Shown piece by piece: positions 4,564-34,748 of a DNA stretch of 34,748 bases; position 1 is the first letter of the stretch; each line of letters opens with the position of its first letter. The translations under genes were made by a program, and so were the position numbers. This stretch comes from a virus: positions 1 through 34,748 of the IMG/VR virus record IMGVR_UViG_3300017917_000954. One strand, written 5' to 3'. The notes under the pieces are model-generated. The model worked only from the letters and a program-made list of their open reading frames with translations. It was not told the DNA's origin and did no database searches.

Positions 4564-4573
4564 AATTTTTAGT

Positions 4574-4583
4574 TAAATATTTA
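4574..4583. promoter_or_regulatory. Palindromic bidirectional T4-type late promoter
   Basis: The 22-base gap between divergent genes contains the perfect palindrome TAAATATTTA. Each strand therefore presents a TAAATA core of the T4 late promoter (consensus TATAAATA). On the plus strand the core ends six bases before the ATG at 4586; on the minus strand 14 bases before the ATG at 4563. No Shine-Dalgarno fits in either leader. Late function is inferred from the motif and its recurrence in this window. Confidence 0.6.
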
Positions 4584-4585
4584 CT

Positions 4586-8318: not shown

Positions 8319-9291
8319 CGGAAAAAGAATATTTGTATCAGGAGCCACAGGTTCGTGGGGACAAACACTGATACGTATGTTGTTGGTCAATTACAATCCC
8401 AAAGAAATTATTTGCTTCAGTCGCGGTGAACTGCAACAGGTATTGATGCAACGCCAATTTCATGATCCAAGATTGAAATTTGTAGTAGGTGATATACGTG
8501 ACTATGATGCTGTGCGTTTTGCTATGAAGGATGTAAATGTGGTATTTCACTTGGCAGCATTAAAGCATGTGCCAATCTGCGAAGATCATCCACAAGAAGC
8601 AATCAAAACAAACATTACTGGAACTACTAACATTGTAAATGCCGCAATTGAAAACGGTGTAGACAAAGTCATTGACGTAAGCACCGACAAAGCTGTTGAG
8701 CCGTTGAACTTGTACGGTATGACCAAAGCAGTAGGAGAAAAGTTGGTTATTCAAGGCAATGATCTTAGTCAGCACACACGGTTTGTTTGTATCCGTGGGG
8801 GTAATGTAATGGGTTCTAACGGATCAGTTATACCTTATTTTATTGAACAAATTAAGGCAGGCGGTCCAATAACTATAACCGATCAAAAAATGACTCGTTT
8901 CTTTTTAACTCTCGAAGAAGCTATTGGGTTGTTGTTTAAAGCTGCCGAAGACAGTATTGGCGGCGAAACGTTTGTGATGAACATGCCAGCATGCTATATC
9001 AAGGATGTAGCAGACGTACTAATGGAACACTATGGTCAAGTTGACATAAAAGAAATTGGCAGTAAACCCGGAGAAAAATTAGACGAGATGTTAATCAGCA
9101 AGCACGATGCTGGACTTAGCTATTACTACGATGAAAACTATTTTGTAACCTTACCAGTGAAGCGTACTCCAGATCTTGAAGCAAAATATTCACAATTGCC
9201 AAAATTTGATCAAGAAGAATTCTCATCTAAAACATTTATTATGAATCGTGATCAAATTAAACAAATGTTAATTAAAGGCAAGTTCCTATGA
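8311..9291 (+). CDS. UDP-GlcNAc 4,6-dehydratase/5-epimerase (WbjB/FnlA/CapD-like SDR)
   Basis: 326-residue extended short-chain dehydrogenase. NAD-binding GATGSWG at 11-17, FHLAALKHVP near 83, catalytic YGMTK at 135-139, and GGNVMGSNGSVIPYF near 168. This is the pattern of the polysaccharide-biosynthesis (CapD-type) branch that removes water from UDP-GlcNAc and inverts C5, giving a UDP-4-keto-6-deoxy-L-hexosamine. Flanked by the 2-epimerase (8-base overlap) and the RmlD-like reductase (ATGA overlap), together a three-gene L-sugar module. The alternative, a PseB-like dehydratase for pseudaminic acid, is less likely because no other Pse genes are present. Confidence 0.87.
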   Translation: MFNGKRIFVSGATGSWGQTLIRMLLVNYNPKEIICFSRGELQQVLMQRQFHDPRLKFVVGDIRDYDAVRFAMKDVNVVFHLAALKHVPICEDHPQEAIKTNITGTTNIVNAAIENGVDKVIDVSTDKAVEPLNLYGMTKAVGEKLVIQGNDLSQHTRFVCIRGGNVMGSNGSVIPYFIEQIKAGGPITITDQKMTRFFLTLEEAIGLLFKAAEDSIGGETFVMNMPACYIKDVADVLMEHYGQVDIKEIGSKPGEKLDEMLISKHDAGLSYYYDENYFVTLPVKRTPDLEAKYSQLPKFDQEEFSSKTFIMNRDQIKQMLIKGKFL

Positions 9292-10085
9292 AAGTCTCTG
9301 TAATTGGTAGTCGTGGTATGGCCGGGCATGTAATTGTAAAATATCTTGAACAACAAGGGCACACAGTTACTTCAGTAGATAGAACTCAATTGGACATAGA
9401 AAATGATAATGTTGATCAGTTTTTTAATTCGTTGGATAGTGACTTTGTTGTTAATGCCGTTGGATTATTAGTAAAAGACTCAATTGATAGACCTGATAGA
9501 GCTATCGCTGTTAATTCTTGGTGGCCACAGTATTGTGCTTATCGATTAAAAGATACTAAAACAAAACTAATACATTTATCAACAGACTGTGTATTTGATG
9601 GCAAACAAGGCAATTATATTGAATCTGATCAGCATACTGAAACTAATGCATACGGACGCAGTAAGAGCTTTGGGGAAATCAATAATACTAAAGACATTAC
9701 GTTTAGAATGAGTATCATTGGACCCGAGCTAAAAAATGGTACAGGATTATTGAATTGGGTGTTAACTAATCAAGATCATGAGTTACCGGGTTGGGACAAT
9801 GCTTGGTGGAATGGTATTACTACACTACAGTTGGCCAAATGTATTAATCAATATATCAATAACCCTGTAGCCGCAGGTGTATATCATTTGGTTAATAACA
9901 ATGTGCAGATTAACAAATATGATTTGCTTTGTAAAATTAATGAAGTATATGGTTTAGGAAAAAAGATTTTGCGTACTCAAGGTCCTAAGCCTGTAAACAA
10001 GATATTAGTTAATACTCGTAGTGAAATCAACTTTGCAATTCCCGACTACGATACACAATTACAACAGTTAAAAGATTTTACTTAA
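9288..10085 (+). CDS. RmlD-like SDR reductase of nucleotide-sugar synthesis
   Basis: 265 residues. GSRGMAGH at 7-14 binds NAD(P), LSTDCVFDGKQGNY near 97 is the RmlD-type STDYVFDG motif, catalytic Tyr/Lys lie in YGRSK at 122-126. It would reduce the 4-keto sugar made by the preceding gene. WbjC/FnlB enzymes of UDP-L-FucNAc synthesis are longer and, as I recall, carry a C-terminal cupin-like domain; this protein lacks one and is closer in size to RmlD or the WbvR-type reductase of UDP-L-rhamnosamine/L-QuiNAc synthesis. Last gene of the plus operon; overlaps the converging gene by eight bases. Confidence 0.85.
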   Translation: MKVSVIGSRGMAGHVIVKYLEQQGHTVTSVDRTQLDIENDNVDQFFNSLDSDFVVNAVGLLVKDSIDRPDRAIAVNSWWPQYCAYRLKDTKTKLIHLSTDCVFDGKQGNYIESDQHTETNAYGRSKSFGEINNTKDITFRMSIIGPELKNGTGLLNWVLTNQDHELPGWDNAWWNGITTLQLAKCINQYINNPVAAGVYHLVNNNVQINKYDLLCKINEVYGLGKKILRTQGPKPVNKILVNTRSEINFAIPDYDTQLQQLKDFT

Positions 10086-11028
10086 CGTAATTTCTCATAT
10101 GTGCCCAGCATCTGCCTGAGCGCACATCTTCAAAACTCCAGTGACACTGTGCTAGTTTACGAATCCATTGTTCTCTATCTGGCAAGTTAGGGTTTTCCAA
10201 CAATTTAAAATCAGTATTGGCTATGTCACCGCCTTGGCTGTAACTAGGATCATCGGTGATAAATGCTGGAATACCTTCTATGGGTGCAACAGCACTAGGA
10301 GTTGAATTATGACATACTAGTGCCCAACAATTATGCAAATCTTGTGTTATGTGTCTATCTTGAGGACTTACAGTTACGCCAAACTTGTCTAGTGTGGGTT
10401 TATAATTAGGATATGCTTTCCAATCTCCAGGATGCCAACGCAATACTATAGGCCTATCTGTGTTTTCTCTAATCTGCCCAAGTGTGTGTTTTAACCATTT
10501 CATTAGATCAACTCCACGCATTGACCAACCCAATGGTCGTTGCAACGTAATAAGCACATGATTACCTTGAGTGCGCCATGGCTTCAGATCCATGTTATAA
10601 TCACGACGGATGTTGTTCCAGTTTTCATCTCCGGGATTATCGTTACAGTAGATACCTGTAGCAGGAAATACTCCATTGAAACTGTAGCGTAGATACTTGT
10701 GAGGATTAAACTTGTTCTTGTAGATAAAAACATTGCTGTCGATGCTGAGCCAATACTTGCCTAGCTGTGTTTGTGTGTCCATGACCATTTTACGTACTTT
10801 GTAATGCGGTAGGTTTGTTTTACTTGGATTGGCGTCAAATGCATTGCCAATAATAGCTCCCACATCACATGTTTCATATGTTTGACTGCGTGTAGTTGAA
10901 GCTTGGTCACCACACCGGGCCGCACCTTCGGCAAAGAATGTCAATGCATCAATTTTTTCCTGTCCGTTGATTTTGACAGGCAAGCTACTTAGGTAGCTCT
11001 TAATAATCAAGGGTTGGCCGTTCTGCAT
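10078..11028 (-). CDS. GT-B / capsule-type glycosyltransferase (paralogue 2)
   Basis: 316 residues, related to the genes at 3721-4563 and 11000-12133. Visible: VLRWHPGDW near 200 (the RxHP position), CHNSTPSAVAPIEGIPAF near 240-257, and the shared C-terminal block LLENPNLPDREQWIRKLAQ. Last gene of a four-gene minus-strand operon. Its start lies inside the end of the preceding gene (29-base overlap), which suggests translational coupling. Specific sugar unknown. An N-terminal segment of about 100 residues is not shared with paralogue 1. Confidence 0.68.
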   Translation of the reverse strand: MQNGQPLIIKSYLSSLPVKINGQEKIDALTFFAEGAARCGDQASTTRSQTYETCDVGAIIGNAFDANPSKTNLPHYKVRKMVMDTQTQLGKYWLSIDSNVFIYKNKFNPHKYLRYSFNGVFPATGIYCNDNPGDENWNNIRRDYNMDLKPWRTQGNHVLITLQRPLGWSMRGVDLMKWLKHTLGQIRENTDRPIVLRWHPGDWKAYPNYKPTLDKFGVTVSPQDRHITQDLHNCWALVCHNSTPSAVAPIEGIPAFITDDPSYSQGGDIANTDFKLLENPNLPDREQWIRKLAQCHWSFEDVRSGRCWAHMRNYVK

Positions 11029-12133
11029 TTTCTAATACCATTCTCCAGGCCTGACCTGTTATAATTTCATCTAAACTAAACTGGCTGTATGCAATACTAT
11101 GCAACCACTTTTGTATTAATTCCTCATCGGGTCGATTGGGATTTTCTATCTGTGTTAGATCTTTATTACCTACTGGATCTGCCGCTGTAGGAGCCAGTGC
11201 AAAAGCCGGAATACCCGATTGTATCGCTTCTACGGCAGCGATGCTATTGTAAGTAATTAATGCGTACACATCATTGTTTAAAGCATCATAGATAGTGTCA
11301 TTGGTTCGTTCACCTCTGCTGGCTTTTTCTCTAATGACAATCTCTCTATCAGTGTGTTGTTTTAGCGTGGCAATTACATTGGTTATCCATGCATTTCGAT
11401 CCTCGCCATAATACTGAAAGGGTTTTTCTGTAGATAACACAACAAGAATTTTACTTCCAGGTTTACGCCATCCGCGATAATGTAAATCGGGATTAAATTT
11501 AACTAGATCATCCCATCGATCGCTTGGAACATCATATATGCAATTGTGTTGCATGGCATTTTTGACAATGCGATGAAAGATTTTTCTTCCGGTGCGATTG
11601 TTTTGACAACGGTAGTTGCCAAGGTATCCTGTTTCAATAAAGTAATAATCATCGCCTTTGCTACGTACATGATTGGCAATTTTTCCGCTCGAAATCCCCC
11701 TCAATAACACTGGGCCTGAAATACTATCGCACTCTGTACGATAACGTGCCTTGTCCATAAACCGACTTTCAGGATACGCAGCCATGATCATAGCAGGATA
11801 ATCACTGTATTTCATTAATCTTGTTAACTGTTCGTCTTTTTGAATAGTTGCTTGACTGAGTTGATTTCTAAAAGATCCTTCACCGCCGGCACGCTTGAGA
11901 GCCATACGTTGATCTTTAGTTAATGGAGGCAATGCTGGTTCTGGAATTCCTCCAATGTATGCTTCTATTTCTTTAAACAGTTTTAAATCATAATAGGCAT
12001 TGAGAGCATCTTGAACATTGTGCTTCAATGCCGACTCAATAGTACTGTGCTGGGATTTATAAAGATCTCCTGGCCATCGATCGACCAGTGCCGTGGGTAA
12101 AATTATTGGAGGTTGTTCAATGGGCAAGGTCAT
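11000..12133 (-). CDS. GT-B / capsule-type glycosyltransferase-like protein (paralogue 3)
   Basis: 377 residues. The C-terminal half aligns by eye with the other two paralogues: EIVIREKASRGER stands where the others have RPHP/RWHP, then ITYNSIAAVEAIQSGIPAF, then IENPNRPDEELIQKWLHSIAYSQF. The RxHP His is replaced (REKAS), so donor binding may differ or activity may be lost. About 110 extra N-terminal residues precede the family region. Starts by ATGA overlap with the GT8-like gene. Family by internal paralogy; function tentative. Confidence 0.6.
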   Translation of the reverse strand: MTLPIEQPPIILPTALVDRWPGDLYKSQHSTIESALKHNVQDALNAYYDLKLFKEIEAYIGGIPEPALPPLTKDQRMALKRAGGEGSFRNQLSQATIQKDEQLTRLMKYSDYPAMIMAAYPESRFMDKARYRTECDSISGPVLLRGISSGKIANHVRSKGDDYYFIETGYLGNYRCQNNRTGRKIFHRIVKNAMQHNCIYDVPSDRWDDLVKFNPDLHYRGWRKPGSKILVVLSTEKPFQYYGEDRNAWITNVIATLKQHTDREIVIREKASRGERTNDTIYDALNNDVYALITYNSIAAVEAIQSGIPAFALAPTAADPVGNKDLTQIENPNRPDEELIQKWLHSIAYSQFSLDEIITGQAWRMVLENAERPTLDY

Positions 12134-12816
12134 TTAATATCTCGCTGTAGGCAGTAATCTGCAAGCATATGTTCACGGTGCCACTCATCGCCTTGGGGTG
12201 TTGTAGCAAACTCATGGAAACACGGTGTTCCTAAGGTATAATGTAATAATTTAGCATCAGGGTTTGCTCCATATTCATCTGGTAACCAGTTCCACTCGCG
12301 AGCCAACTCCCCAATACGATCATCTTCAATCCAAGTAAACCTATGTAACTGAGCACCGGTAGACTTTTGAATAAATTCTGGGGTTAACTTTCTGTTAGGA
12401 TGACTGTTACAATTCCAAAGTATTACACTTGACCAATTCTTGCGTGGATAGTTTTCGTTTTTTGCGCCAAGATATTTTTCAGTCATTTTTGTTTGATAAT
12501 CGTGCTTGACTACTTGAACATCAAAATAAGGATTTCTTTGCTCCCATAGCTCAACAATGTCACCACGCACAATCATATCACCGTCCATGAAAATTGCATG
12601 ACCTGTGTAGCCCATTAAATGCGGCACTAAAAATCTACTGTAGATAAATTGATTACTGCCGTCTGTGTGAGTTTCTGTATAGTCATTGAACAGGTTCAAT
12701 GCCAATGGTACAATAGCAACAGGTTGACTGGCCTGCCTAATAATACTATTGGCGCAGGTATGATATGCCACAGCTTCTCTTGGGTCATACCCAATAAAAA
12801 TTGGAATTGGTTTCAT
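12130..12816 (-). CDS. GT8-like glycosyltransferase
   Basis: 228 residues. N-terminal PIFIGYDPREAVAYHTCANSI is the typical start of bacterial and phage GT8-like proteins; AIFMDGDMIVRGDI near 75-88 carries the DxD metal/nucleotide-sugar motif; NWSSVILWNC near 127 is the conserved substrate-pocket region, and LLHYTLGTPCF near 190 supplies the distal His. Retaining transfer from a nucleotide sugar is expected. Start codon shares a base with the stop of the upstream nucleotidyltransferase-cupin gene (TAATG). Confidence 0.8.
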   Translation of the reverse strand: MKPIPIFIGYDPREAVAYHTCANSIIRQASQPVAIVPLALNLFNDYTETHTDGSNQFIYSRFLVPHLMGYTGHAIFMDGDMIVRGDIVELWEQRNPYFDVQVVKHDYQTKMTEKYLGAKNENYPRKNWSSVILWNCNSHPNRKLTPEFIQKSTGAQLHRFTWIEDDRIGELAREWNWLPDEYGANPDAKLLHYTLGTPCFHEFATTPQGDEWHREHMLADYCLQRDIK

Positions 12817-13577
12817 TATTGTCTTTCAATGTCTTCTTCAACACAGTGGTCACCGTATTGCACTTCTACTATTCTACACGGTATATCAAACGGATTGGTC
12901 AATTGATGCCATTCAGCAACGTGTATCTTGTGTTCACGATGTTTCTCTAGTGTTATACTAGGTAACTGGTACCCGCCATCTAATAGAGTTTTTACAACAC
13001 ACCGCCCTTCGCTAACTATCCAATATTCTGCACGTTTCCAGTGGCGTTGTACACTCAAACTACATCCAGGATTGACTGTGAGTTCTTTTACTTTCATACC
13101 GGGTACTTCGTGTAACACTCTATAATAACCCCACTGACGTTCTGTCTTGGGTGCTTTCCATTCTTGCAAAATCCATGAACTAGAATTTGACTTATTGAAT
13201 CCGCCTATACCAAACACAAATTTTACATTTGTGTCATTTAAATCCATTTCGGGAATATTGTCATTGGTTCTATCGCCGCCATTGGCAAAGATGATTTGAT
13301 CTTGAGGGTAACTTTGTCGTACCATCTGAATAGCGTGTTTGGCACTGCCGTCATCGTCATTAAAATCAATAACAAAGTCTATCATCTTTAGATTACGTAC
13401 AATGTTGGCACGTTCCAACAACGGCATAAACGGCGCACCTTTTTTGCGTGTTAACCACGAATCACTGTTGACTCCTACTATCAAGATATCACCAAGTTTT
13501 TTTGCTTCGTTAAAATAGGCAATGTGACCTGAGTGGAGTGGATCAAACCCACCAGTTACTAGTACAATCTTTTTCAT
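12816..13577 (-). CDS. HxGH nucleotidyltransferase fused to a cupin domain
   Basis: 253 residues in two domains. Residues 1-~140: cytidylyltransferase-like fold with VTGGFDPLHSGH (HxGH at 15-18), as in glycerol-3-phosphate cytidylyltransferase and the HldE/RfaE C-domain; the usual ISSTxx motif is not obvious. Residues ~160-253: small cupin with VKELTVNPGCSLSVQRHWKRAEYWIVSEG, resembling the C-terminal cupin of mannose-1-phosphate guanylyltransferases. It probably activates a sugar or polyol phosphate as its CDP or ADP form. First gene of the minus operon. The start at 13577 puts HxGH at the normal place; a longer in-frame reading back to 13664 runs antisense into the neighbouring gene and is rejected. 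Confidence 0.85.
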   Translation of the reverse strand: MKKIVLVTGGFDPLHSGHIAYFNEAKKLGDILIVGVNSDSWLTRKKGAPFMPLLERANIVRNLKMIDFVIDFNDDDGSAKHAIQMVRQSYPQDQIIFANGGDRTNDNIPEMDLNDTNVKFVFGIGGFNKSNSSSWILQEWKAPKTERQWGYYRVLHEVPGMKVKELTVNPGCSLSVQRHWKRAEYWIVSEGRCVVKTLLDGGYQLPSITLEKHREHKIHVAEWHQLTNPFDIPCRIVEVQYGDHCVEEDIERQ

Positions 13578-13582
13578 AAAGA

Positions 13583-13590
13583 TATTTATG
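13583..13590 (-). promoter_or_regulatory. T4-type late promoter, minus strand
   Basis: On the minus strand this reads CATAAATA (7 of 8 to TATAAATA), ending five bases before the ATG at 13577. Transcription would begin at or just before the start codon, leaving essentially no leader. The divergent plus gene starts at 13588, inside the element. Confidence 0.55.
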
Positions 13591-14421
13591 TACGCAGTTA
13601 ACGGTAAATATAGAATCTTGACACTAAGCAAAGAACAAAAACGACAAATCAAAGGACATAGCAAGGATAATCCAATAATTGGATTGCCAGAGACAGAAAG
13701 TCCAACTTATACCTTACCTATTGACTGTGCATGTGTAATACACGGTAATGGGTATGATTGGAAGTATGTTGATAATTTATATAACATGCTGACTAGAAAT
13801 TTAACACGCCCAGTGGTATTACATGTGTACACTGAATCATCAAGAACAGTCCCAGCACCCTATATCAAACATAATCTAATTGATTGGAAAATTGGCGGGC
13901 CAAAACAATCTTGGTGGTACAAAGTTCAAATGTTCAACAGTGAGCATCACCGAGGTTTGCTGTTATATTTTGATTTAGATGTGGTTATTACAAAAAATAT
14001 TGATTGGATTTGGAAACTAAAAACCCGACATTTTTGGGCCGTAAAGGATTTCAAACATTTATGGAGGCCGGCATATCAATCTATTAACTCTAGTATTATG
14101 TGGTGGGACACAACTCAATACGATTGGGTTTGGCGTAATTTTTTAGATTTAGATTTAGCACAAACTGTAAAAAGATTTCATGGGGATCAGGATTACATTA
14201 ATTCTGTAATAACAGAACAACAACGTAGATATTTTAATTCAGATCTAGTAAAAAGCTGGCGCTGGCAGTGCCTAGATGGCGGATACGATTTCAAGCGTAG
14301 GACCTGGAAAACACCTGGTTCTGGTACCAATATTAGTGATAACACAGCTATATTGATTTTTCACGGAAATCCTAAACCCCACGAAATACAGGATTCAGTA
14401 ATAATAAACAGTTGGAAATAA
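13588..14421 (+). CDS. Glycosyltransferase, GT-A type with DLD motif
   Basis: 277 residues. CACVIHGNGYDWKYVDNLYNML near residue 48 begins the nucleotide-binding fold, LLYFDLDVVITKNID near 127-141 carries the DxD motif, SSIMWWDT near 170 and FHGDQDYIN near 200 match the acceptor region, and IFHGNPKPHEI near 260 is a C-terminal His motif typical of GT8/GT32-like enzymes. The start at 13588 is the only ATG that leaves the fold intact; there is no ribosome-binding site, and only ten bases separate it from the divergent gene. Last gene of the glycan island. Confidence 0.75.
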   Translation: MYAVNGKYRILTLSKEQKRQIKGHSKDNPIIGLPETESPTYTLPIDCACVIHGNGYDWKYVDNLYNMLTRNLTRPVVLHVYTESSRTVPAPYIKHNLIDWKIGGPKQSWWYKVQMFNSEHHRGLLLYFDLDVVITKNIDWIWKLKTRHFWAVKDFKHLWRPAYQSINSSIMWWDTTQYDWVWRNFLDLDLAQTVKRFHGDQDYINSVITEQQRRYFNSDLVKSWRWQCLDGGYDFKRRTWKTPGSGTNISDNTAILIFHGNPKPHEIQDSVIINSWK

Positions 14422-17123: not shown

Positions 17124-17154
17124 CAGGTACCCCTAAAAAGGTACCTGTTTTTTT
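17124..17154 (+). terminator. Intrinsic terminator overlapping the uvsW promoter
   Basis: Perfect stem CAGGTACC (17124-17131) with GGTACCTG (17140-17147), loop CCTAAAAA, then seven T (17148-17154). The last two T are also the first bases of the TTGACT -35 box of the next promoter. Confidence 0.92.
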
Positions 17155-17181
17155 GACTTTTGCTTTCAAGGTAACTATAAT
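17153..17181 (+). promoter_or_regulatory. Consensus-like sigma70 promoter of uvsW, leaderless geometry
   Basis: TTGACT (17153-17158), 17-base spacer, TATAAT (17176-17181). Only seven bases separate the -10 box from the ATG at 17189, so the transcript should begin at or one base before the start codon. No Shine-Dalgarno is possible on such an mRNA. Confidence 0.8.
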
Positions 17182-17188
17182 ATATACA

Positions 17189-18664
17189 ATGAGAACCGCC
17201 ACAATTATAATCAAAGACGAAGTAAATATCAAGATTGAAGGTCTGGAACTTGATGTACGCAAAGCTCTAGTAAACAAATTCAAATATGATGTGCCTTACG
17301 CCAGATACCTTCCTGCGGTACGGTTAGGACGATGGGATGGCAAAGTCAGCTACTTTCAATTGGGTGGTAGCACTTATGTGAATCTGTTACCAGAAATTAT
17401 TCCCATATTAGAAGAATACAACTACGATATTGAGTTAGATGATCAACGTGATTATCGAACAGTATTTGACTTTGATCCTGTACAAGAGGACAGCTTTGCT
17501 CATGTGCTATGGCCCAAAGGACATCCAGCTGCCGGACAACCCATAATGATGCGTGACTATCAGTGTGCTATAGTCAATAACTTTTTAAAAAATCCTCAGT
17601 GTTTACAGGAAATTGCCACAGGTGCTGGCAAAACAATCATGACAGCGGCACTGAGTCAGCGGTGTGAACCTTATGGCCGCACCATTGTTATTGTTCCTAA
17701 TAAAAGTCTGGTTACACAAACAGAAGATGACTATCGCAACATGGGACTGGATGTGGGTGTGTACTTTGGAGACAGAAAAGAATGGGGCCGCACACATACC
17801 ATTTGTACTTGGCAAAGTTTAAATGTCTTACTTAAAAATACCAAAGCAGGCAGTGCTGCAGAAGACTGTACCATTTCAGAGTTCATTGAAGATGTTGTAT
17901 GTGTCATGGTTGATGAAGTACATATGGCCAAAGCAGATGCTCTTAAAAGTTTACTCACAGGTGTAATGAGCCGTATTCCTATTCGTTGGGGACTCACAGG
18001 AACTGTACCCAAAGAAGCTTTTGAGTTTCAAAGTTTACACGTAAGTATTGGTCCAGTTATTTCAAGACTGGCTGCAAGTGAGCTACAGGAAATGGGACAT
18101 TTGTCTAACTGTCATGTAAACATTGTACAGTTTCAAGATCATGTAGAGTACAACAACTATCAAAGTGAATTAAAGTACTTGTTGGAAGAATCAGGAAGAC
18201 TAGATGCTATGGCTGAAGTAATTGCTCGTGTAAAAGAAACAGGCAATACCCTGGTGCTAGTGGATCGTGTGGCAGCAGGACAAGAACTAGTTCGACGCTT
18301 GGGTGACCGTGCTGTGTTTGTATCGGGTGCAACTAAAGCAAAAGATCGTAAGGAAGAATATGATGAAGTGGCTGATGTGGATGACAAAATTATTGTGGCA
18401 ACATACGGAGTGGCTGCCGTTGGTATTAATATTCCTCGCATCTTTAATCTTGTGCTTGTGGAACCTGGTAAAAGTTTTGTTCGAGTAATTCAAAGTATAG
18501 GACGAGGTATTCGCAAAGCCGAAGACAAAGACTTTGTGCAAATTTGGGACTTGACCAGTACCTGTAAATTTGCCAAACGGCATCTGACCAAACGCAAGCA
18601 GTATTACAAAGAAGCCAAGTATCCATTTACACAGGAAAAACTTGAGTGGATGAAGATAAAATAA
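17189..18664 (+). CDS. uvsW: UvsW-type superfamily 2 helicase
   Basis: ATP-dependent helicase that, in T4, processes R-loops, D-loops and branched DNA and switches replication from origin- to recombination-dependent mode. 491 residues. An N-terminal double-strand-binding-like region (IKIEGLELDVRKAL, GRWDGKVSYF) is shared with T4 UvsW. Helicase motifs: Walker A ATGAGKT at 143-149, DEVH at 242-245, GLTGT near 269, and the QSIGRGIRK motif VI near 430. Start at 17189; an in-frame TTG at 17153 is in fact the -35 box. No ribosome-binding site, consistent with leaderless translation. Firm family call. Confidence 0.93.
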   Translation: MRTATIIIKDEVNIKIEGLELDVRKALVNKFKYDVPYARYLPAVRLGRWDGKVSYFQLGGSTYVNLLPEIIPILEEYNYDIELDDQRDYRTVFDFDPVQEDSFAHVLWPKGHPAAGQPIMMRDYQCAIVNNFLKNPQCLQEIATGAGKTIMTAALSQRCEPYGRTIVIVPNKSLVTQTEDDYRNMGLDVGVYFGDRKEWGRTHTICTWQSLNVLLKNTKAGSAAEDCTISEFIEDVVCVMVDEVHMAKADALKSLLTGVMSRIPIRWGLTGTVPKEAFEFQSLHVSIGPVISRLAASELQEMGHLSNCHVNIVQFQDHVEYNNYQSELKYLLEESGRLDAMAEVIARVKETGNTLVLVDRVAAGQELVRRLGDRAVFVSGATKAKDRKEEYDEVADVDDKIIVATYGVAAVGINIPRIFNLVLVEPGKSFVRVIQSIGRGIRKAEDKDFVQIWDLTSTCKFAKRHLTKRKQYYKEAKYPFTQEKLEWMKIK

Positions 18665-19464: not shown

Positions 19465-19897
19465 GTTAAACATAGCAAACGAAATGGCAGTTTTTGATCG
19501 TAAAGATCGAACATTCTACGACAGCTTGACCGACGAAGAACGCAAGAAGTTTAGCACCTTCTTGATGATACGCTGGGGATCAAGCATCAACGGATCACGC
19601 GAACTTCAAGAGTATTATGTACAAAGTTGCAATCATTATCTTAACAAAAACTTCTTTGCGTTGAGCCGGCATCCTAAACTACAGTGGTTGTGTGCCACCG
19701 CGGTTAGTCCGGGCATGGGCACACATAGGCACAACTGGATTGCTCCTAAAAAGAAAGAATCTGGCGCATCGGGGTTAAAGAAACAACTAGTAGAACTATT
19801 TCCGCATTACAAAGACGACGAAATAGAACTATTGGCAAAAATCACTACTAAAAAAGAACTTGATGCATATATCAAGGCACACGGCAACGACAAATGA
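19454..19897 (+). CDS. Possible clamp-loader small-subunit-like protein
   Basis: 147 residues. The order YDSLTDEERKKFSTFLMIRW, then GSRELQEYYVQSCNHYLNKNFF, then HPKLQWLCATAVSPGMG with a basic PKKK and a final DEIELLAKITTKKELDAY recalls, in layout, phage clamp-loader A subunits (gp62-like), where a conserved aromatic N-region is followed by 'H-P-x-L-Q-W' and a helical C-terminus. This is weak resemblance from memory, and no gp44 gene lies in the window. Otherwise a conserved phage hypothetical. Overlaps the next gene by four bases. Confidence 0.45.
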   Translation: MSDKLNIANEMAVFDRKDRTFYDSLTDEERKKFSTFLMIRWGSSINGSRELQEYYVQSCNHYLNKNFFALSRHPKLQWLCATAVSPGMGTHRHNWIAPKKKESGASGLKKQLVELFPHYKDDEIELLAKITTKKELDAYIKAHGNDK

Positions 19898-20598
19898 GTT
19901 TTGAACGATTGGTAGTCAATGGGTGTAGCTACATGGCTCATTATGCCACTGGTCAAGGACACACTAAATTAGCACAGAAACTTGATATACCAACTGCTGA
20001 AAATCTATCTTTGCCGGGTTCATGTAACAGTCGTATAATAAGAACATGCTTGCAGGATTCGTACAAGACAACACAGTCTACATTGTATGTTATAGGATTG
20101 ACTTTTTTAAGTAGAATTGAAATTCCAGTGAGTCTTACTGAACATCCAGTGGAAGGCAAATGGATTAGTTTACAAAATCAAGTTAATTATAATCAAACAT
20201 ACGAGGCGCATTGGACGCATAAAGATACCAAACAGTTATTGGAATTAAACCTAAAACTAGACCTAAGCAGTACACGAGATAGATTTGAAAATCTAATTTA
20301 TAATCTGTTAAGTTTAGTTGATAGTTTACACAGTCGTGGGCATAGTGCATTGATTTATAAACAGGTCAATGATGTGCATACGGATATCATAGATCAAACG
20401 TTGGCTTTATCTTATTGCTCTAACACTAATTTTGTACATAGATTAAACTGGCATGCAAATATTTGGCAGTTTAATCAAGGAGTAAAGTGGGCGCCAAAAG
20501 ATGAATTATTGCCACTGGACGCAAGACATCCACAAATTGGGGATAATATTGCACTTACTGAGTTTTTATCAGATTATATTAAAAATGTATCAGTGTAG
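19894..20598 (+). CDS. SGNH/GDSL-like protein with GCS nucleophile motif
   Basis: 234 residues with the four-block layout of SGNH hydrolases: block I VNGCSYM (Asp of GDS replaced by Cys, Ser kept), block II LSLPGSCNSRII, block III YVIGLTFLSR, and block V LDARHPQIG (Asp...His). Family members are esterases or acyl transferases acting on lipids and sugars; O-deacetylation or acetylation of surface glycan is a reasonable guess here. One of four such genes in the window (with 23717, 25406 and 27541). No signal peptide, so it acts in the cytoplasm or in the virion. Confidence 0.65.
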   Translation: MSFERLVVNGCSYMAHYATGQGHTKLAQKLDIPTAENLSLPGSCNSRIIRTCLQDSYKTTQSTLYVIGLTFLSRIEIPVSLTEHPVEGKWISLQNQVNYNQTYEAHWTHKDTKQLLELNLKLDLSSTRDRFENLIYNLLSLVDSLHSRGHSALIYKQVNDVHTDIIDQTLALSYCSNTNFVHRLNWHANIWQFNQGVKWAPKDELLPLDARHPQIGDNIALTEFLSDYIKNVSV

Positions 20599-21256
20599 AT
20601 ATTGTAAACGAGACTTTGTCAAAGAAACAACGCTAGCGGTTCACGTTTGTGAGCCAAAACGTCGTCATCAAGAAAAAGACGAACGTGGAGTGCAATTAGG
20701 GTTTCAAGCCTACATCAAATTTTATGAAGTAACCCAAGGATCAGCAAAGTTAAAAACGTTTGATGACTTTGCTGAATCAAGTTTCTATCGTGCTTTTGTT
20801 AAATTTGGTCGCTATTGTGTGAGTATCCGGGCCATCAATCCAGCACGCTTTACTGAATGGTTAATCAAGCAAAACAAAAAGATTGACTATTGGTGTAAAG
20901 ATAGCATTTACACAGAATACTTGTTGGATTATTTGCGTGTAGAAAATGTAAACGATGCCTTGGCTAGAGCCATTGAGTACAGCATGGACTGGGCAGAAAA
21001 ATCAGGGCACCCAGCACATGATTGTTTACGCTACGGTAATACAAATACCATGGCCTATGCTGTGACCACTGGACGTATCAGTCCTTGGGTATTGTATAAT
21101 TCAGAATCAGGATTGAAGTTTTTAAGCGAGCTAGATGCCACACAAGTGGCCATGGTTTGGCCTTATATCGACTCTGAAGTTTGGTCTAAAAAGTTTGCCG
21201 ACTACATGGCCGATCAAGAGTATGCACGCGACATATTAAAGAAAGCAGGTTGGTAA
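20585..21256 (+). CDS. Zinc-finger phage protein
   Basis: 223 residues. The N-terminus YQCRYCKRDFVKETTLAVHVC is a C2H2-like or C2HC finger (CxxC at 4-7, then HxC around 20-22) followed by a basic patch (KRRHQ). The rest (FVKFGRYCVSIRAINPARF; GRISPWVLYN; ARDILKKAGW) is conserved-looking but has no named domain. Nucleic-acid binding is inferred from the finger alone. Start at 20585 places the finger at the terminus; a longer in-frame reading from 20501 lies wholly inside the preceding gene. It runs into the next gene with a TAATG overlap. Confidence 0.75.
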   Translation: MYQCRYCKRDFVKETTLAVHVCEPKRRHQEKDERGVQLGFQAYIKFYEVTQGSAKLKTFDDFAESSFYRAFVKFGRYCVSIRAINPARFTEWLIKQNKKIDYWCKDSIYTEYLLDYLRVENVNDALARAIEYSMDWAEKSGHPAHDCLRYGNTNTMAYAVTTGRISPWVLYNSESGLKFLSELDATQVAMVWPYIDSEVWSKKFADYMADQEYARDILKKAGW

Positions 21257-21615
21257 TGGAAACAGTAATTATTTTGTTAGCGTTGTTTGGAATCAAGCAT
21301 TTTTTAGCTGACTTCCTTTGGCAATTTCCGTACATGGTTGCAGACAAAGGGTATTATGGTGCCCCAGGCGGAATGACTCATGCTATGTTGCATGGACTAC
21401 TTACATTCTTTGTGTTGATAGGATTTACCCGACCTGAAGATGCTGTTACACTGTCTCTGATAGATACTGCGATACACTATCACATTGACTGGGCAAAAAC
21501 CAATCTAAGTCAAGGGTTGACCACAGCCGATCATAGATTTTGGGTTTGGTTTGGACTGGATCAGACTTTACATTATTTGACTTATATCGCTATCATAGGT
21601 ATAATTGTGTTATGA
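21256..21615 (+). CDS. DUF3307-like membrane protein
   Basis: 119 residues with about three to four hydrophobic helices. KHFLADFLWQF near residue 12, AMLHGLLTFF near 45, a conserved HYHIDWAK near 72, and WFGLDQTLHYLTY near 97 match the His/Asp-rich pattern of the DUF3307 family, a membrane family of unknown function. Conserved His and Asp facing the membrane suggest metal binding or catalysis, but this is unproven. Coupled on both sides (TAATG start, ATGA end). Confidence 0.75.
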   Translation: METVIILLALFGIKHFLADFLWQFPYMVADKGYYGAPGGMTHAMLHGLLTFFVLIGFTRPEDAVTLSLIDTAIHYHIDWAKTNLSQGLTTADHRFWVWFGLDQTLHYLTYIAIIGIIVL

Positions 21616-22190
21616 GCGCAGATATTGACATTGACTTTGCTGACAGGGAAAGCATACTAAAGTTAATTGACACTGTGCCAGCACGACAACTGCATCAAGG
21701 ACAAGTGAGACGTCATAACTCGGGTGTTTACGTAACAGACATTCCCTATGATCCTGTAAACCAATGTGCAGCCATTGACTACGAAACAGCAGAAGCTCGT
21801 GGTTACTTTAAAATAGACTTTCTTAACATGACTGTGTACAACTTGGTTAAGAGTCCTGAACATTATGAGCAAATGCAAGCACAAGAACCACCTTGGACTC
21901 GTTTATGGACAGACTCTGCTTGGGCTAGCCAACTAGCACACATCGGTAACTACACTGGACTGTTGGCCACAATGCGTCCAGATTCAATACCCAGAATGGC
22001 AGCATTTATCAGTATTATTAGGCCCGGAAAAGCGCACTTACAAAATCGACCCTGGGCAGAAGTGTTCGAATCAGTATGGGATGGAGATGACAGTCGGGGA
22101 TATACGTTTAAAAAAGCTCATGCGGTGAGCTATGCAGCCTTGGTAGCCTTGCACATGAATTTGCTCAATCAACCCGTCGAACCAGCGTAA
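21612..22190 (+). CDS. Miniature DNA polymerase III alpha (DnaE)-like protein
   Basis: 192 residues resembling a condensed C-family polymerase core. ADIDIDF at 3-9 corresponds to the DnaE palm strand PDxDIDF with two catalytic Asp; FKIDFLNM at 66-73 corresponds to KFDFLGL with the third Asp; RRHNSGVYVTD at 33-43 corresponds to the RHAGGVVIA-type segment; MRPDSIPRMAAFISIIRPG corresponds to the LxPxxxxDxxAxxALxRPGP region; and FKKAHAVSYAALVALHM corresponds to FNKSHAxAYAxxSYQT. DnaE is about 1,100 residues with PHP, fingers, beta-binding and OB domains; nearly all are missing here. Polymerase, nuclease accessory or regulator roles are all possible. Start by ATGA overlap. The homology is by eye but covers several ordered motifs. 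Confidence 0.72.
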   Translation: MSADIDIDFADRESILKLIDTVPARQLHQGQVRRHNSGVYVTDIPYDPVNQCAAIDYETAEARGYFKIDFLNMTVYNLVKSPEHYEQMQAQEPPWTRLWTDSAWASQLAHIGNYTGLLATMRPDSIPRMAAFISIIRPGKAHLQNRPWAEVFESVWDGDDSRGYTFKKAHAVSYAALVALHMNLLNQPVEPA

Positions 22191-22542
22191 TTGATTTACG
22201 CTTTGATTTTTTTCTAGCAATATCAATCAAACTACACGCAGGGCCGTGTAAAATCTCTAGATCCTTGTTAACAAAGGTTTTTAAGTAGTTCTTGAAAGGA
22301 TCCCATTCTGACTTTAAGAATATATTAATGGGTATGGACCTATTGCTTTCCCACCACCAAACGTTGGCCAACTCTAAAAAATGTTTTTTTAACTCTAAAT
22401 CTTGTATGCTACCAAAATCGTAGATTGTAGTTATTATATCATCTTTGTTTTGTATAATTCCAACATATTCCGTGGAGCCGTAGACGCACAAAGTTATAAA
22501 AGGATATTTGTCTGCAAGTTTTGAAAAGATATCATTGCCCAT
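22165..22542 (-). CDS. Conserved small phage protein, minus-strand cassette
   Basis: 125 residues, no recognised domain. Features: a beta-rich first half (FITLCVYGSTEYVGIIQN; IITTIYDFGSI), a conserved-looking WWWESNRSIPINIFL near 61-75, and a strongly basic C-terminus (ARKKSKRKS). It looks like a conserved hypothetical of T4-type marine phages. Single-gene unit with its own TAAATA promoter; its 3' end overlaps the polymerase-like gene on the other strand by 26 bases. Confidence 0.68.
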   Translation of the reverse strand: MGNDIFSKLADKYPFITLCVYGSTEYVGIIQNKDDIITTIYDFGSIQDLELKKHFLELANVWWWESNRSIPINIFLKSEWDPFKNYLKTFVNKDLEILHGPACSLIDIARKKSKRKSITLVRRVD

Positions 22543-23716: not shown

Positions 23717-24463
23717 ATGAAATTCAAAAAGATTGTTGGGTTCGGCGATTCGTGGACCTATGGTGACGAACTTGTAGATCCAGAATTACTAAAATCTCGT
23801 CCAGACGCACATTTTTCTTGGGTAGAAAATACCGAGTATAGGCAACGTAACTGTTTTCTTGGACAACTTGGCGCACATTACAACGTACCCACTGAAAATT
23901 TTGGAATTCCCGGTGGCAGCCTAACCAGCACAATGTGGACATACCAGTGGTGGTTAGATCATGAAACTTTGCCACTAAATGAATGTTTGGTTCTTGTTGG
24001 TCTCACAAATTCTGACCGTGTTTCGCACTATAATCCCAATCATCAATACTATTCAAATGATCCACCATGGTATAAATTTGTACACAGTCCATGGGTAGAT
24101 TTTGGGTCTAGCATAGTGCCCAAAGAATTTTGCAATTTGATAAAACAACAAATAGTTTTAACCAGTTGTCCAGAATTAGAAAAACTAAACTATCAACAAG
24201 CTGTTTTGTTTTTTGATGGGGTTAGTGCTAGAAATCGTATACCTACTATACAATTTAATATCATGCCCGGCGAGAGACCGGTAAACACTGCTCCAACATT
24301 GTTGGAACCTGATTTTAATTGGGTTGTATGGTTTAGAGATCATCCAAACAACCAGCAAAGAGAATTAATCAAACCCGATGGTCATCCCAATGAATTTGGA
24401 CACAGTTTGATAAGAGATCGCTTGATTTCTCAAATTGAATCTGTTACAATGTATGAATGCTAG
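23717..24463 (+). CDS. SGNH hydrolase-like protein (canonical GDS)
   Basis: 248 residues with the clearest SGNH pattern in the window: block I GFGDSWTYGDEL with nucleophile Ser near residue 11, block II NFGIPGGSLTSTMW, block III LVGLTNSDR (G...N), block V KPDGHPNEFGH with catalytic Asp and His. Likely esterase or acyl transferase. No signal peptide. It sits between a structural gene and primase and overlaps primase by seven bases, so it is expressed with replication genes despite its unrelated apparent function. Confidence 0.78.
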   Translation: MKFKKIVGFGDSWTYGDELVDPELLKSRPDAHFSWVENTEYRQRNCFLGQLGAHYNVPTENFGIPGGSLTSTMWTYQWWLDHETLPLNECLVLVGLTNSDRVSHYNPNHQYYSNDPPWYKFVHSPWVDFGSSIVPKEFCNLIKQQIVLTSCPELEKLNYQQAVLFFDGVSARNRIPTIQFNIMPGERPVNTAPTLLEPDFNWVVWFRDHPNNQQRELIKPDGHPNEFGHSLIRDRLISQIESVTMYEC

Positions 24464-25425
24464 ACATTCTTGCCTTCTTACCAACAAAACGCAAAACGTC
24501 TAGTTCGGGCTGGGTAAGTTTTAATGCACCTTGTTGCGTACACAATGGTGAGAATCCGGACAAAAGATCACGTGGCGGATTAAAGCTCAGCAACGAAGGT
24601 TGGAGTTATCATTGTTTCAATTGTGGATATACTGCTAGTTTTATACTAGGACGTAATTTAAGTTATAAAGCACGTCGATTATTGGGGTGGCTAAATGTAC
24701 CGCTGGAAGAAATAGAACGCATAAACTTAGAAAGTCTTAAACACAAATCAATTGCTGGCCTTTTGAGTGAACGTCAACAAGTGTCAAATGAACTACAGGG
24801 TATTCGGTTTGAAGATCGTGATATTGCCATGGGTCAAATGTTATCGGTTGAAGATACTCAACACTGGGAATATTTACTGAATAGACAAGCTCCTGTTAAC
24901 TATCCGTACATGCGCCCTCAATTGACCACTGGACGTGACAGCATTATCGTACCATTTACTTACAATCACACTGTGGTAGGGCATTGCCAACGCTTTTTAG
25001 ATGACCGCACACCCAAGTATATAAATGATATGCAACCAGGTTATGTGTTTGGCACAGATTTACAACGCGATGAGTGGAACTATGTGTTAGTAATGGAAGG
25101 TGTGTTTGATGCGCTCAGTATCGCAGGTCTAGCAGTATTGCATGCTGAAATCAATGACGCACAGGTTCGACTGATACGCAGTCTAGGACGAGAGGTTATT
25201 GTAGTACCCGATCAAGACGAACCTGGTATGAAATTAGTTGACCGTGCAGTGGAATTAGGATGGTCAGTGAGCATGCCCAATTGGGACGACAATGTAAAAG
25301 ATGTAAATGATGCAGTAATCAAATATGGCCGGCTTGGTACGTTACTGACTATAATGCAAGCTCGAGAACGTAGTCGAATAAAAATCGAACTAAGGAAAAA
25401 GCAAATTGTCAAAAAAGTACAATAA
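24457..25425 (+). CDS. DNA primase, zinc finger plus TOPRIM
   Basis: Synthesises RNA primers on the lagging strand together with the helicase encoded at 26140 (T4 gp61 role). 322 residues. Zinc-binding C26-x2-H29 and C53-x2-C56 near the N-terminus; catalytic TOPRIM segment with VMEGVFDALS (Glu214) and VVPDQDEPGMK (D252-x-D254), followed by NWDDNVKDVNDA. This is a compact DnaG-type layout. Start in ATGCTAG overlap with the SGNH gene. The C-terminus is Lys/Arg-rich and overlaps the next gene by 20 bases. Confidence 0.9.
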   Translation: MLDILAFLPTKRKTSSSGWVSFNAPCCVHNGENPDKRSRGGLKLSNEGWSYHCFNCGYTASFILGRNLSYKARRLLGWLNVPLEEIERINLESLKHKSIAGLLSERQQVSNELQGIRFEDRDIAMGQMLSVEDTQHWEYLLNRQAPVNYPYMRPQLTTGRDSIIVPFTYNHTVVGHCQRFLDDRTPKYINDMQPGYVFGTDLQRDEWNYVLVMEGVFDALSIAGLAVLHAEINDAQVRLIRSLGREVIVVPDQDEPGMKLVDRAVELGWSVSMPNWDDNVKDVNDAVIKYGRLGTLLTIMQARERSRIKIELRKKQIVKKVQ

Positions 25426-26128
25426 ACTTTGGATTTTTGGAGATAGTTATAGCACTCCATACGTTTGTGTAGATCCTTGCGATAGTTTTTGGATGTTGAC
25501 AGCACAACAGTTAAACACAAACACTGTGTATAACTACTCTCGGTCCGGCAACAGTTTTGAAGCAGTAGTTCATGCTGTTGTCAGCGAATCAGCACAGTAT
25601 GATTGGGAAAATGATTTTTTCCTAATAGGAATCCCGCCGCTGTCTCGCTTGGCCCTGGTAAGCAAGGACGATACGTATTCGCATCATCGCCAGGTGTTTG
25701 ACATTGACTCAAACAAAATAGATGAACAAATGATTTTATGCTTGCACGGAATAGAAAGTATTTCTTTTTATAATGATCCTACCGCGGTGAGATTTGAAGA
25801 TCCGCAGTGGACACAGATACAAGCATTGCGCACTGTATTTTTGTTAAATGCTTGGTTAGACTCAAAAAATGCCAATTATCTGATTATAAATTTAAGCAAA
25901 GATTTTATTGTCGATCAAGCATCAACTGGAGAATTTTTAATAAACTCAGGCATAAATCATCCGCGAAACTCAATAGCAGGTGATACATATTATAATGTAA
26001 ATCTCAATATCAATAAACCAGCGGATTTTGACTTGTATGGATGGCTTGGGCATCATGGCCCAATTGGAAACAAATACTATTTTGATAATGTATTGTACCC
26101 ACGATTAGTAAAAAATAACTTATTATAA
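25406..26128 (+). CDS. SGNH hydrolase-like protein
   Basis: 240 residues read from a TTG start, with AAGGA about ten bases upstream inside primase. Block I LWIFGDSYSTPY, block II NYSRSGNSFEAVV, block III FFLIGIPPLSRL, and a C-terminal GWLGHHGPIGNKYYF that can supply the His; the Asp of the dyad is less clear. Function as for the other SGNH members. Placed between primase and helicase, so it interrupts what would otherwise be a primosome operon. Confidence 0.72.
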   Translation: MSKKYNKLWIFGDSYSTPYVCVDPCDSFWMLTAQQLNTNTVYNYSRSGNSFEAVVHAVVSESAQYDWENDFFLIGIPPLSRLALVSKDDTYSHHRQVFDIDSNKIDEQMILCLHGIESISFYNDPTAVRFEDPQWTQIQALRTVFLLNAWLDSKNANYLIINLSKDFIVDQASTGEFLINSGINHPRNSIAGDTYYNVNLNINKPADFDLYGWLGHHGPIGNKYYFDNVLYPRLVKNNLL

Positions 26129-26139
26129 AAGGAAGCAAA

Positions 26140-27540
26140 TTGTTAAAAGATTATGGATTAGATGTACAGCGACTATTTTTGGAAATGATGCTTCAAGACG
26201 CATCAAGCTATGTGCGTGTACAAAACATTTATAACCCAGAAAACTTTGATAGAAGTTTACGTCCTGCAGCCGAGTTTATTTCCCAGCACGTAAATGATTT
26301 TAAAACCATGCCTGTGGCAGAGCAAATAACTGCTGCAACAGGTATTAAGTTAAATCATATTCCTGATTTAAATGAGGATCATTTTAACTGGTTTATGGAT
26401 GAGTTTGAAGGCTTTACCAAACGCCAAGAACTTGAACGTGCTATTTTAAAATCAGCAGATTTATTGGAAAAAGGTGAATTTGACCCTGTAGAAAAGCTGA
26501 TCAAAGATGCTGTACAAATCTCATTGACCAAAGACATGGGCACAGACTATTTTGACAGTCCAAAAAGTCGTTTGGAAAAATACTTCTCATCGGGCGGACA
26601 AGTATCAACAGGATGGCCCAGCGTGGACAAATTACTATACGGTGGATTTAGTCGCGGAGAATTAAACATTTTTGCTGGTGGATCTGGATCGGGTAAATCC
26701 TTGGTCATGATGAACATTGCACTCAGCTGGTTACAACAAGGTCTAAGTGGCGTTTACGTTAGTTTGGAATTGTCGGAAGAACTATGTGCCTTGCGTACAG
26801 ATGCCATGTTGGCAGGAATGAGCACCAAAGACATTCGTCGAGACATGGACACCACTGAATTAAAAGTTAAATTGTACAGTAAAAAGTCAGGACAATATCG
26901 TATCAAAGCATTGCCAGCACAGAGTAATATTAATGATGTACGTGCATACTTAAAAGAAGTACAGGTACAGACTGGAATCAAGGTAGACTTTGTCATGGTT
27001 GACTATTTGGACTTGTTGATGCCTGTGAGTGCCAAAGTAAGTCCCAATGATTTATTTGTAAAAGACAAGTATGTTTCAGAAGAGCTACGCAATTTAGCAA
27101 AAGAATTAAATGTATTGCTGGTTACAGCTTCGCAGTTAAATCGTGGAGCTGTGGAGGAAGTAGAGTTTGATCACAGTCATATTTCAGGCGGTATTTCAAA
27201 GATCAACACAGCTGACAACGTATTTGGCATTTTTACAAGTCGTGCTATGAAAGAGCGTGGACGCTATCAAATTCAGTGTATGAAATCGCGTAGTTCAACA
27301 GGTGTAGGACAAAAGGTAGACTTAGAATACAACATTGAAACCATGCGTATCACAGACTTAGGCGAAGATCAGCAACAGTCAAGTGGATTTATCAAAAAGC
27401 CCAACGTAATGGATCAAATCAAAGCTTCTAGTAGAGTGGGTATTCAAGATGCTGGTGATGAAGAAACATCAGCACCTGTAGCAGATGTACAAAGTGCCAA
27501 ACTAAAACAACTGCTTGGATCAATAAAAACAAATTTTTAG
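26140..27540 (+). CDS. Replicative DNA helicase, DnaB/gp41 type
   Basis: Hexameric 5'-3' helicase at the fork, partner of the primase. 466 residues: an N-terminal helical domain (1-~130), linker, then RecA-like motor with Walker A GGSGSGKS at 180-187, ELSEEL after the next strand, Walker B VDFVMVDYLDLL near 285, and QLNRGAVE near 330 corresponding to motif H3/H4. TTG start preceded by AAGGAAG with ideal spacing; no ATG gives a full N-domain. It ends one base before the convergent SGNH gene on the other strand. Confidence 0.92.
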   Translation: MLKDYGLDVQRLFLEMMLQDASSYVRVQNIYNPENFDRSLRPAAEFISQHVNDFKTMPVAEQITAATGIKLNHIPDLNEDHFNWFMDEFEGFTKRQELERAILKSADLLEKGEFDPVEKLIKDAVQISLTKDMGTDYFDSPKSRLEKYFSSGGQVSTGWPSVDKLLYGGFSRGELNIFAGGSGSGKSLVMMNIALSWLQQGLSGVYVSLELSEELCALRTDAMLAGMSTKDIRRDMDTTELKVKLYSKKSGQYRIKALPAQSNINDVRAYLKEVQVQTGIKVDFVMVDYLDLLMPVSAKVSPNDLFVKDKYVSEELRNLAKELNVLLVTASQLNRGAVEEVEFDHSHISGGISKINTADNVFGIFTSRAMKERGRYQIQCMKSRSSTGVGQKVDLEYNIETMRITDLGEDQQQSSGFIKKPNVMDQIKASSRVGIQDAGDEETSAPVADVQSAKLKQLLGSIKTNF

Positions 27541-28401
27541 TTAAAATCTTGTTGGTTGATTGAGTGAAAATGAATACATTTTTTGATTTAATAAACACTG
27601 ATCAATGTCAGTGACCCAATCAACAGTTTTTTGACAAACATTATATTCGGGTAAAAAGGTTTTTACCCAGGACAAGTGTTGTAAAGGACTAGGGTGCAAA
27701 TCTATGTCTTCTGTGTATTTGTTAGAAAATGCAAGATCTTTTTCTAGCATTTGTAAAAATTCACAGCATTCGTCTTTGATATTTTGAGAGAGTGGCAAGT
27801 TAATAAAAGTTTGATCAATGATTGATGTCAGATCTGGCCAACTTGGACCTGCCATTCGGTGGTATAAATTCTCCGCTGAAACAAAATCAGTTGCTTTTAT
27901 TTTTTTATATTTGTGGATATTTTTGTTAAATGGTGCATGTGTTAAGTCGGACAAAGATTTTTGGTACAATTTGTAAGAATCAGTGTCAGTATCAAACTGT
28001 TGCCAATGAAACATTTTCCAGTTTACATTGAGTTGATTTAACAACATAATAGCCGAAACAAACCATGCATATGATAATAATTCGTAACCCTTCGGACAAG
28101 AGTATGTTGTATTATTATTTTTTAAGTCAAAATACTGATTATGACAATGCCCCCAGTGGTTTATTTGATAATAATCGGTTCTAGCCAGTCCTGACCAAAG
28201 TATAATTACTGTATCATCTTTGTTTAACACATTTCGACTATGACATTCAACCAATGAATTTAAAATAAAGTTATTTCCAGCACCAGGATCTCCCCAGTTT
28301 TGATATTCACTGAAATTGGGTGCAATGATATCTGCCCAAGTTGGGTAATGATATTTGGTAAAACTACATCCAAATGTAAATAAACGCTGGTTGTTTTTCA
28401 T
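27541..28401 (-). CDS. SGNH-like protein, minus-strand cassette
   Basis: 286 residues, the longest of the four SGNH-like proteins. Block I FTFGCSFTKYHYPTW (GCS instead of GDS), block II NWGDPGAGNNFIL, block III VIILWSGLARTD, block V DIDLHPSPLQHLSW (D-x-x-H). An aromatic-rich insertion (about 100-190) is not in the others. It has its own TAAATA promoter and lies antisense to the replication genes, as expected for an independently acquired cassette. Substrate unknown. Confidence 0.72.
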   Translation of the reverse strand: MKNNQRLFTFGCSFTKYHYPTWADIIAPNFSEYQNWGDPGAGNNFILNSLVECHSRNVLNKDDTVIILWSGLARTDYYQINHWGHCHNQYFDLKNNNTTYSCPKGYELLSYAWFVSAIMLLNQLNVNWKMFHWQQFDTDTDSYKLYQKSLSDLTHAPFNKNIHKYKKIKATDFVSAENLYHRMAGPSWPDLTSIIDQTFINLPLSQNIKDECCEFLQMLEKDLAFSNKYTEDIDLHPSPLQHLSWVKTFLPEYNVCQKTVDWVTDIDQCLLNQKMYSFSLNQPTRF

Positions 28402-34508: not shown

Positions 34509-34748
34509 ATGGCCTATTCAGAAAAAGTACTAGATCATTATGATAACCCACGTAACGTAGGCAAAATGGATGTTTCTGATCCCACTGTGGGCACAGGAAC
34601 CGTGGGTGCGCCAGCATGCGGCGATGTCATGCGACTACAAATAAAGGTTGAAGATGGTATTATTACGGACGCCAAGTTCAAAACTTACGGCTGTGGATCG
34701 GCAATTGCTAGCTCCTCACTCGTTACCGAATGGGTCAAGGGCAAATCA
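34509..34748 (+). CDS. iscU: IscU Fe-S cluster scaffold, 3' end beyond window
   Basis: First 80 residues of an IscU-type scaffold, on which IscS sulfur and iron are assembled into 2Fe-2S clusters for delivery to apo-proteins. Starts AYSEKVLDHYDNPRNVG; cluster ligands Cys37 in APACGDVM and Cys61 in TYGCGSAIASSS; the third ligand Cys lies past the window end. Residues SSLVTEWVKGK are near-identical to proteobacterial IscU as I know it, so transfer from a proteobacterial host is likely. Strong AAGGAG ribosome site and its own promoter. Whether iscS, iscA or hscA/B follow cannot be seen. Clear family match. Confidence 0.93.
   Translation, partial: MAYSEKVLDHYDNPRNVGKMDVSDPTVGTGTVGAPACGDVMRLQIKVEDGIITDAKFKTYGCGSAIASSSLVTEWVKGKS

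Follow-up and report, generated by a model that had tools for sequence, protein, structure and literature searches.

Does a protein of 192 amino acids that carries the catalytic aspartates of bacterial DNA polymerase III alpha (DnaE), encoded by a T4-related phage, represent a polymerase, and if so, with which other protein does it work? The window, by which we mean the whole analysed stretch of 34,748 nucleotides, is a 34.7-kb fragment of such a phage and encodes UvsX (35-1099) and UvsY (2537-2989). The open reading frame in question starts with an ATG at 21612 that overlaps the TGA of the preceding frame (ATGA) and ends with its stop codon at 22190. Its product matches PHROG 11778 (“DNA polymerase”) with E=1.2e-51 over residues 3-186 of 192. 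The gene and its main elements are as follows:

21612..22190, + strand: Asp half (metal- and template-binding, C-terminal) of a split minimal DNA polymerase III alpha, phrog_11778; assigned from PHROG, hhalign, AF2 model and PDB folds
21621..21635, + strand: codons of D4-I-D6-I-D8, equivalent to E. coli D401-F-D403-V-D405, i.e. catalytic Asp 1 and 2 plus the DnaE-type third Asp; invariant in 88 sequences
21714..21716, + strand: codon of H35, aligned by hhalign with E. coli H511 of KHAGGV, where the palm resumes and the thumb is absent; invariant
21810..21818, + strand: codons of K67-I-D69, equivalent to E. coli K553-F-D555, catalytic Asp 3; invariant, hhalign
22020..22031, + strand: codons of R137-P138-G139-K140, equivalent to E. 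coli R639-P640-G641; R, P and K invariant, hhalign
22113..22136, + strand: codons of K168-A-H170-A-V-S-Y174-A, equivalent to E. coli K758-S-H760; H170 and Y174 invariant, HMMER segment
22184..22202, + strand: terminator-like hairpin and T run at the gene end, between convergent genes; weak hit of a consensus scan

With the 192-residue sequence alone, neither Pfam nor phmmer against the PDB gave anything useful. The relationship to DnaE requires a family profile because pairwise single-sequence searches miss it. With a profile of 28 relatives, the best seven PDB matches were all DNA polymerase III alpha (E from 0.011), and the DIDID, RPG and KSHA segments were matched in order. Aligned by hhalign to E. 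coli DnaE and three DnaE proteins from phage records, the family reached E=1.1e-11. With a larger alignment against the same four DnaEs the score was 76.8 (E=1.5e-9), compared with 27 for the best of 60 column shuffles and 15 for the reversed profile. This alignment spans residues ~32 to 140 and pairs H35 with H511, K67 and D69 with K553 and D555, and R137-P138 with R639-P640, while the equivalence of D4/D6 with D401/D403 is given by the motif and by weak HMMER segments. The AlphaFold2 model of the protein (pLDDT 91.9, pTM 0.83) points in the same direction: its 12 best fold matches in the PDB are all Pol III alpha, with E-values from 1.8e-3, even though it reaches modest TM-scores (0.37-0.58) when compared with the whole of Pol III. 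Homology of the 192-residue protein to the palm of Pol III alpha is thus supported.

The catalytic metal ligands of E. coli DnaE, D401, D403 and D555, occur without exception throughout the C family (PMC3919608). In the phage family D4, D6, D8, H35, K67, D69, R137, P138, K140, H170 and Y174 are invariant among 88 sequences down to 35% identity, and D4, D6, D8 and D69 are also kept in XacN1, Stenotrophomonas phage CM1 and Slicko01. PolC has Asn at the position of D405 of DnaE (PMC3919608); the invariant D8 therefore marks the protein as DnaE-type and not PolC-type. The original prediction, made from the window alone, had read the motifs D4-I-D6-I-D8-F, K67-I-D69-F-L(NM), RPG and KxHAxSYA in the order of DnaE, and this was confirmed for all of them. 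Its mapping of D4, D6 and D69 on D401, D403 and D555 is borne out by the motif and hhalign alignment, since these are the published catalytic residues (PMC3919608). The compressed spacing between the first two motifs was also correctly recognized (63 residues as against 152 in E. coli). The two checks it had proposed, a palm fold in the predicted structure and conservation of the aspartates among phage relatives, both turned out in its favor.

Homologs were found in 90 of 50,697 phage records, mostly of jumbo phages from the groups 121Q/RaK2/CBB, PA5oct and Atu_ph07/Phosso, and in hundreds of viral contigs; a search of the phage records for nearly identical DNA gave none. The scan of a genome collection for a cellular origin of the gene yielded only ten contigs (L291-L300, GTDB) from metagenome-assembled bacterial or archaeal genomes, all with phage synteny, and these are probably jumbo-phage contigs binned by mistake. 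Between relatives, dN/dS is ~0.09, indicating purifying selection.

The GRGS nucleotide-binding segment, which precedes the DxD motif in all four DnaEs compared, is absent from the 192-residue protein. D6 and H35 are 29 residues apart, against a distance of 108 in E. coli, which shows that the thumb has been lost. The profile aligned to a full-length phage DnaE in pieces, skipping 463-599 and 699-799, from which we conclude that most of the fingers are missing too; the YQEQVM and RRAMGKK finger stretches are absent. A poor grip on DNA is therefore to be expected. As originally described, the protein has one sixth of the length of DnaE, and Pfam gave neither a PHP nor an OB match; the partner half described below likewise had no PHP match in Pfam. 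A full finger domain encoded by another gene was also considered, but PF17657 gave weak matches to the 192-residue gene only.

The missing nucleotide-binding segment is found in a second gene of the same phages. This partner (PHROG 11127, ~175 amino acids) contains an invariant GRGS, matches PF07733 at positions 16-98, and aligns to DnaE by hhalign with E=2e-6, far better than shuffled controls. Its AlphaFold2 model has only C-family polymerases as top fold matches in the PDB. The C-terminus of the partner reaches E. coli residue 393 and the 192-residue protein starts at about residue 398; hence the two halves abut without overlap. The chain break thus lies between E. coli residues 393 and 401, and neither chain has a complete active site. 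Residue R396 of DnaE falls into the linker missing between the halves. In the partner (contig L118, 5001-5522) an invariant glutamate, E171, stands in place of R390, which never varies in DnaE. This charge reversal is close in sequence to the metal-binding aspartates, and substrate handling may therefore differ from that of DnaE.

The two halves are distributed almost identically. The partner occurs in 87 and the Asp half in 90 of the 50,697 phage records, with equal counts in Escherichia (34), Pseudomonas (11), Salmonella (8), Erwinia (8) and Xanthomonas (3) phages and 10 against 11 in those of Klebsiella. Both were found in 12/12 isolate genomes examined, and the Asp half was present in 12 of 14 large contigs picked for carrying the partner. 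No single frame encoding both halves was detected among 11,136 ORFs. A family B polymerase is encoded in all 12 isolates and in 13 of the 14 large contigs. The window itself contains no partner gene, so its presence in the source phage is deduced from relatives, including one of 345 kb (76% identity) in which the partner was found. A DnaQ/epsilon exonuclease was considered as a constant third partner and rejected: it is encoded in most isolates and absent from the nearest large relatives of the window.

The Asp half lies in a replication and recombination cluster of T4 type (UvsX, UvsY, UvsW, gp61, gp41), with the same gene order in relatives:

17153..18664, + strand: UvsW-type helicase of the replication/recombination cluster (phrog_16, E=5e-74; UvsW_N)
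20501..21256, + strand: upstream neighbor phrog_11058 (E=2.7e-50) with an N-terminal C2H2-like zinc finger; the true start may be internal
21250..21615, + strand: DUF3307 membrane protein (Pfam PF11750, E=4e-14)
22165..22542, - strand: convergent neighbor phrog_11637 (E=7.9e-33), no function known
24457..25425, + strand: gp61-type DNA primase (phrog_47, E=6e-28)
26140..27540, + strand: gp41/DnaB-type replicative helicase (phrog_19, E=4e-72)

Three of these neighbors are constant. The zinc-finger gene phrog_11058 lies upstream of the Asp half in 142/142 loci (65/65 + 77/77), phrog_11637 lies downstream in antisense in 151/151 (77/77 near and 74/74 more distant loci), and the primase is found within ~2 kb in 104/104 (46/46 + 58/58). 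DUF3307, by contrast, was seen beside the Asp half in 8 of 73 near loci and in none of 79 more distant ones; it is a sporadic insertion, an incidental neighbor, and was rejected as a functional partner. The partner gene is located upstream of the gp31-like co-chaperonin (71/71) and of the gp44 clamp loader (65/65), genes that occur near the Asp half in 0 of 160 control loci. Thus both halves belong to replisome gene clusters, one beside the primase and the other beside gp31 and gp44, but to separate ones.

Several other genes of the window deserve mention. Four proteins encoded among the replication genes (19894-20598, 23717-24463 and 25406-26128 on the + strand, 27541-28401 on the - strand) have an N-terminal GDS/GCS-like motif and resemble SGNH hydrolases by eye, with no Pfam match. 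Between UvsY and UvsW lies a block of ~11 kb for sugar-nucleotide and surface-glycan metabolism (2929-14421), which encodes a UDP-GlcNAc 2-epimerase, nucleotide-sugar epimerases, a heptose adenylyltransferase-like protein, glycosyltransferases and methyltransferases. A radical SAM gene is situated just ahead of UvsY (1282-2547), and at 34509-34748 (+) the start of a gene for an IscU/NifU-N iron-sulfur scaffold (Pfam, E=3.6e-35) runs off the fragment.

From sequence comparison and gene distribution we propose that the 192-residue protein is probably one chain of a two-chain minimal nucleotidyltransferase/polymerase of the C family (DnaE type) in T4-related jumbo phages. We read it as half an enzyme because the GRGS segment missing here is supplied by an abutting, co-distributed partner gene. 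The 192-residue chain would provide the three metal-binding aspartates together with a reduced palm and finger base, and the partner, encoded beside gp31 and gp44, would provide the GRGS nucleotide-binding segment. By binding each other, the chains could rebuild an active site of the pol-beta type. At the gp41/gp61 primosome the pair might then serve as an accessory DNA polymerase whose synthesis is short and distributive, for instance in primer extension or gap filling before the family B polymerase takes over. In a narrower version, the two proteins form an obligate second polymerase of the T4-type replisome, comparable to Pol alpha or DnaE3, whose active site is shared by chains from two replication operons; it would lengthen gp61 primers and then give way to the family B polymerase. 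This is conceivable, although we would not rate its chances as high. To our knowledge, such a two-chain enzyme would be the smallest C-family polymerase.

The main rival to a polymerase is an active two-chain nucleotidyltransferase that is not template-directed and instead adds nucleotides to primers or ends without a template, or nucleotidylates another molecule. Such an activity would fit the retention of GRGS, DxD and D, which form the core shared by pol-beta-like nucleotidyltransferase folds, the loss of the thumb and of most finger elements that hold the template, and the change of R390 to an invariant Glu. However, the finger-base RPG and KxHAxSYA motifs that are typical of C-family polymerases have been retained and both genes reside in replisome clusters, and we therefore regard this role as rather unlikely. 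The severe reduction in size, the loss of domains and the fact that the phage relatives already own a family B polymerase could also speak for a derivative that has lost catalysis or has become regulatory and binds DNA, the clamp or parts of the host replisome, perhaps keeping host Pol III out. A decoy would need neither the metal triad nor a separate, co-occurring GRGS half, and the three catalytic aspartates with their neighbors are invariant among the 88 sequences at a dN/dS of ~0.09; such a derivative appears improbable. A decayed relic, also raised originally, is unlikely in view of the same selection and invariant active-site residues, although a loss of activity is conceivable.

The original prediction, with its “minimal C-family polymerase core”, would make the 192-residue protein a complete polymerase by itself, in agreement with the full Asp triad and with the confident predicted fold of the single chain. 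As stated this is wrong, for the chain is without GRGS, which is encoded by the co-distributed second gene, and we give it very little credence. A sequencing or assembly artefact, a pseudogene or a chance resemblance might be suspected from the empty single-sequence searches against Pfam and the PDB, but is already refuted by the relatives in hundreds of viral contigs and 90 phage records, by the synteny and by the low dN/dS, which reduces its probability almost to nil.

A split minimal Pol III alpha has been predicted earlier for the jumbo phages of group 2.2 (Iyer et al. 2021, PMC7824862), and the gene studied here is a further member of this family. As in the relatives of the window examined here, the system described there (PHROGs 11778 and 11127) has the nucleotide-binding and the Mg/template-binding parts in distant genes and coexists with a family B polymerase; there is no difference in kind. 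Our analysis adds the split point, the division of the motifs, the invariant residues, the gene neighborhoods, the near-identical phyletic counts and the universality of the pair, and predicted structures of both halves. The gene had initially been regarded as unexpected in T4-type phages, which is true for the classical ones, whereas in group 2.2 it is a standard gene, as described in 2021. Experimental work on the pair was not found in the open-access literature. In the parts of the genome papers accessible to us, a short Pol III alpha homolog is noted for Pectobacterium phage CBB (CBB_328; PMC5259590) and for Atu_ph07 (gp316; PMC6102473). Judged by size and PF07733 content, both are probably the partner half, the only half mentioned in those parts. 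The Asp half of phage CBB is gp287, annotated as “DNA polymerase” or as membrane protein. Bacterial DnaE1 (E. coli, M. tuberculosis, Taq) has the metal triad, RPG, KxHA, the DnaE-type Asp 405 and the predicted fold in common with the Asp half, but is six times longer, possesses PHP, thumb, HhH, OB and clamp-binding domains, and has GRGS on the same chain.

If the pair is active, it would show how little protein C-family catalysis requires, and one phage lineage would have a replisome with two polymerases, one of the B and one of the C family. The family is also relevant to the origin of the split form, which may be ancestral, as suggested by Iyer et al., or a product of gene fission. It is widespread and includes laboratory-cultivable jumbo phages of E. 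coli, Klebsiella, Salmonella and Pseudomonas.

Unsplit and differently broken polymerases were observed as well. In marine relatives (L305:499-2190, - strand; L306:1408-3132, + strand) gp41 and an EndoIII-like gene are followed downstream by the gene of a C-family polymerase of 563 amino acids. Like the Asp half it is without PHP; unlike it, it is unsplit and contains the whole PF07733 region with the thumb and the finger motif RRAFAKK. It was found in four contigs of the set, which also hold a homolog of the Asp half, and a homolog of 38% identity is encoded by the 484-kb uncultured phage LR756508. In Tenacibaculum phage Larrie (ON950054.1; L289:2646-6226) two neighboring genes together make up a full-length DnaE, with the break at the same FERFLN|PDxDxDF junction, which suggests that breaks are tolerated, or even attracted, there. 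Beyond FERFLN the tail has an intein-like look, but an intein origin of the split, considered on account of this protein, received no support, as Pfam gave no intein match. Matches to the family B polymerase fall into two separate open frames in Paride (OR805295; 825 + 379 amino acids), Atu_ph07 (NC_042013; 578 + 418), Slicko01 (OQ508956; 578 + 322) and contig G016 (560 + 417), so that the B polymerase of these phages may be split or interrupted, too.
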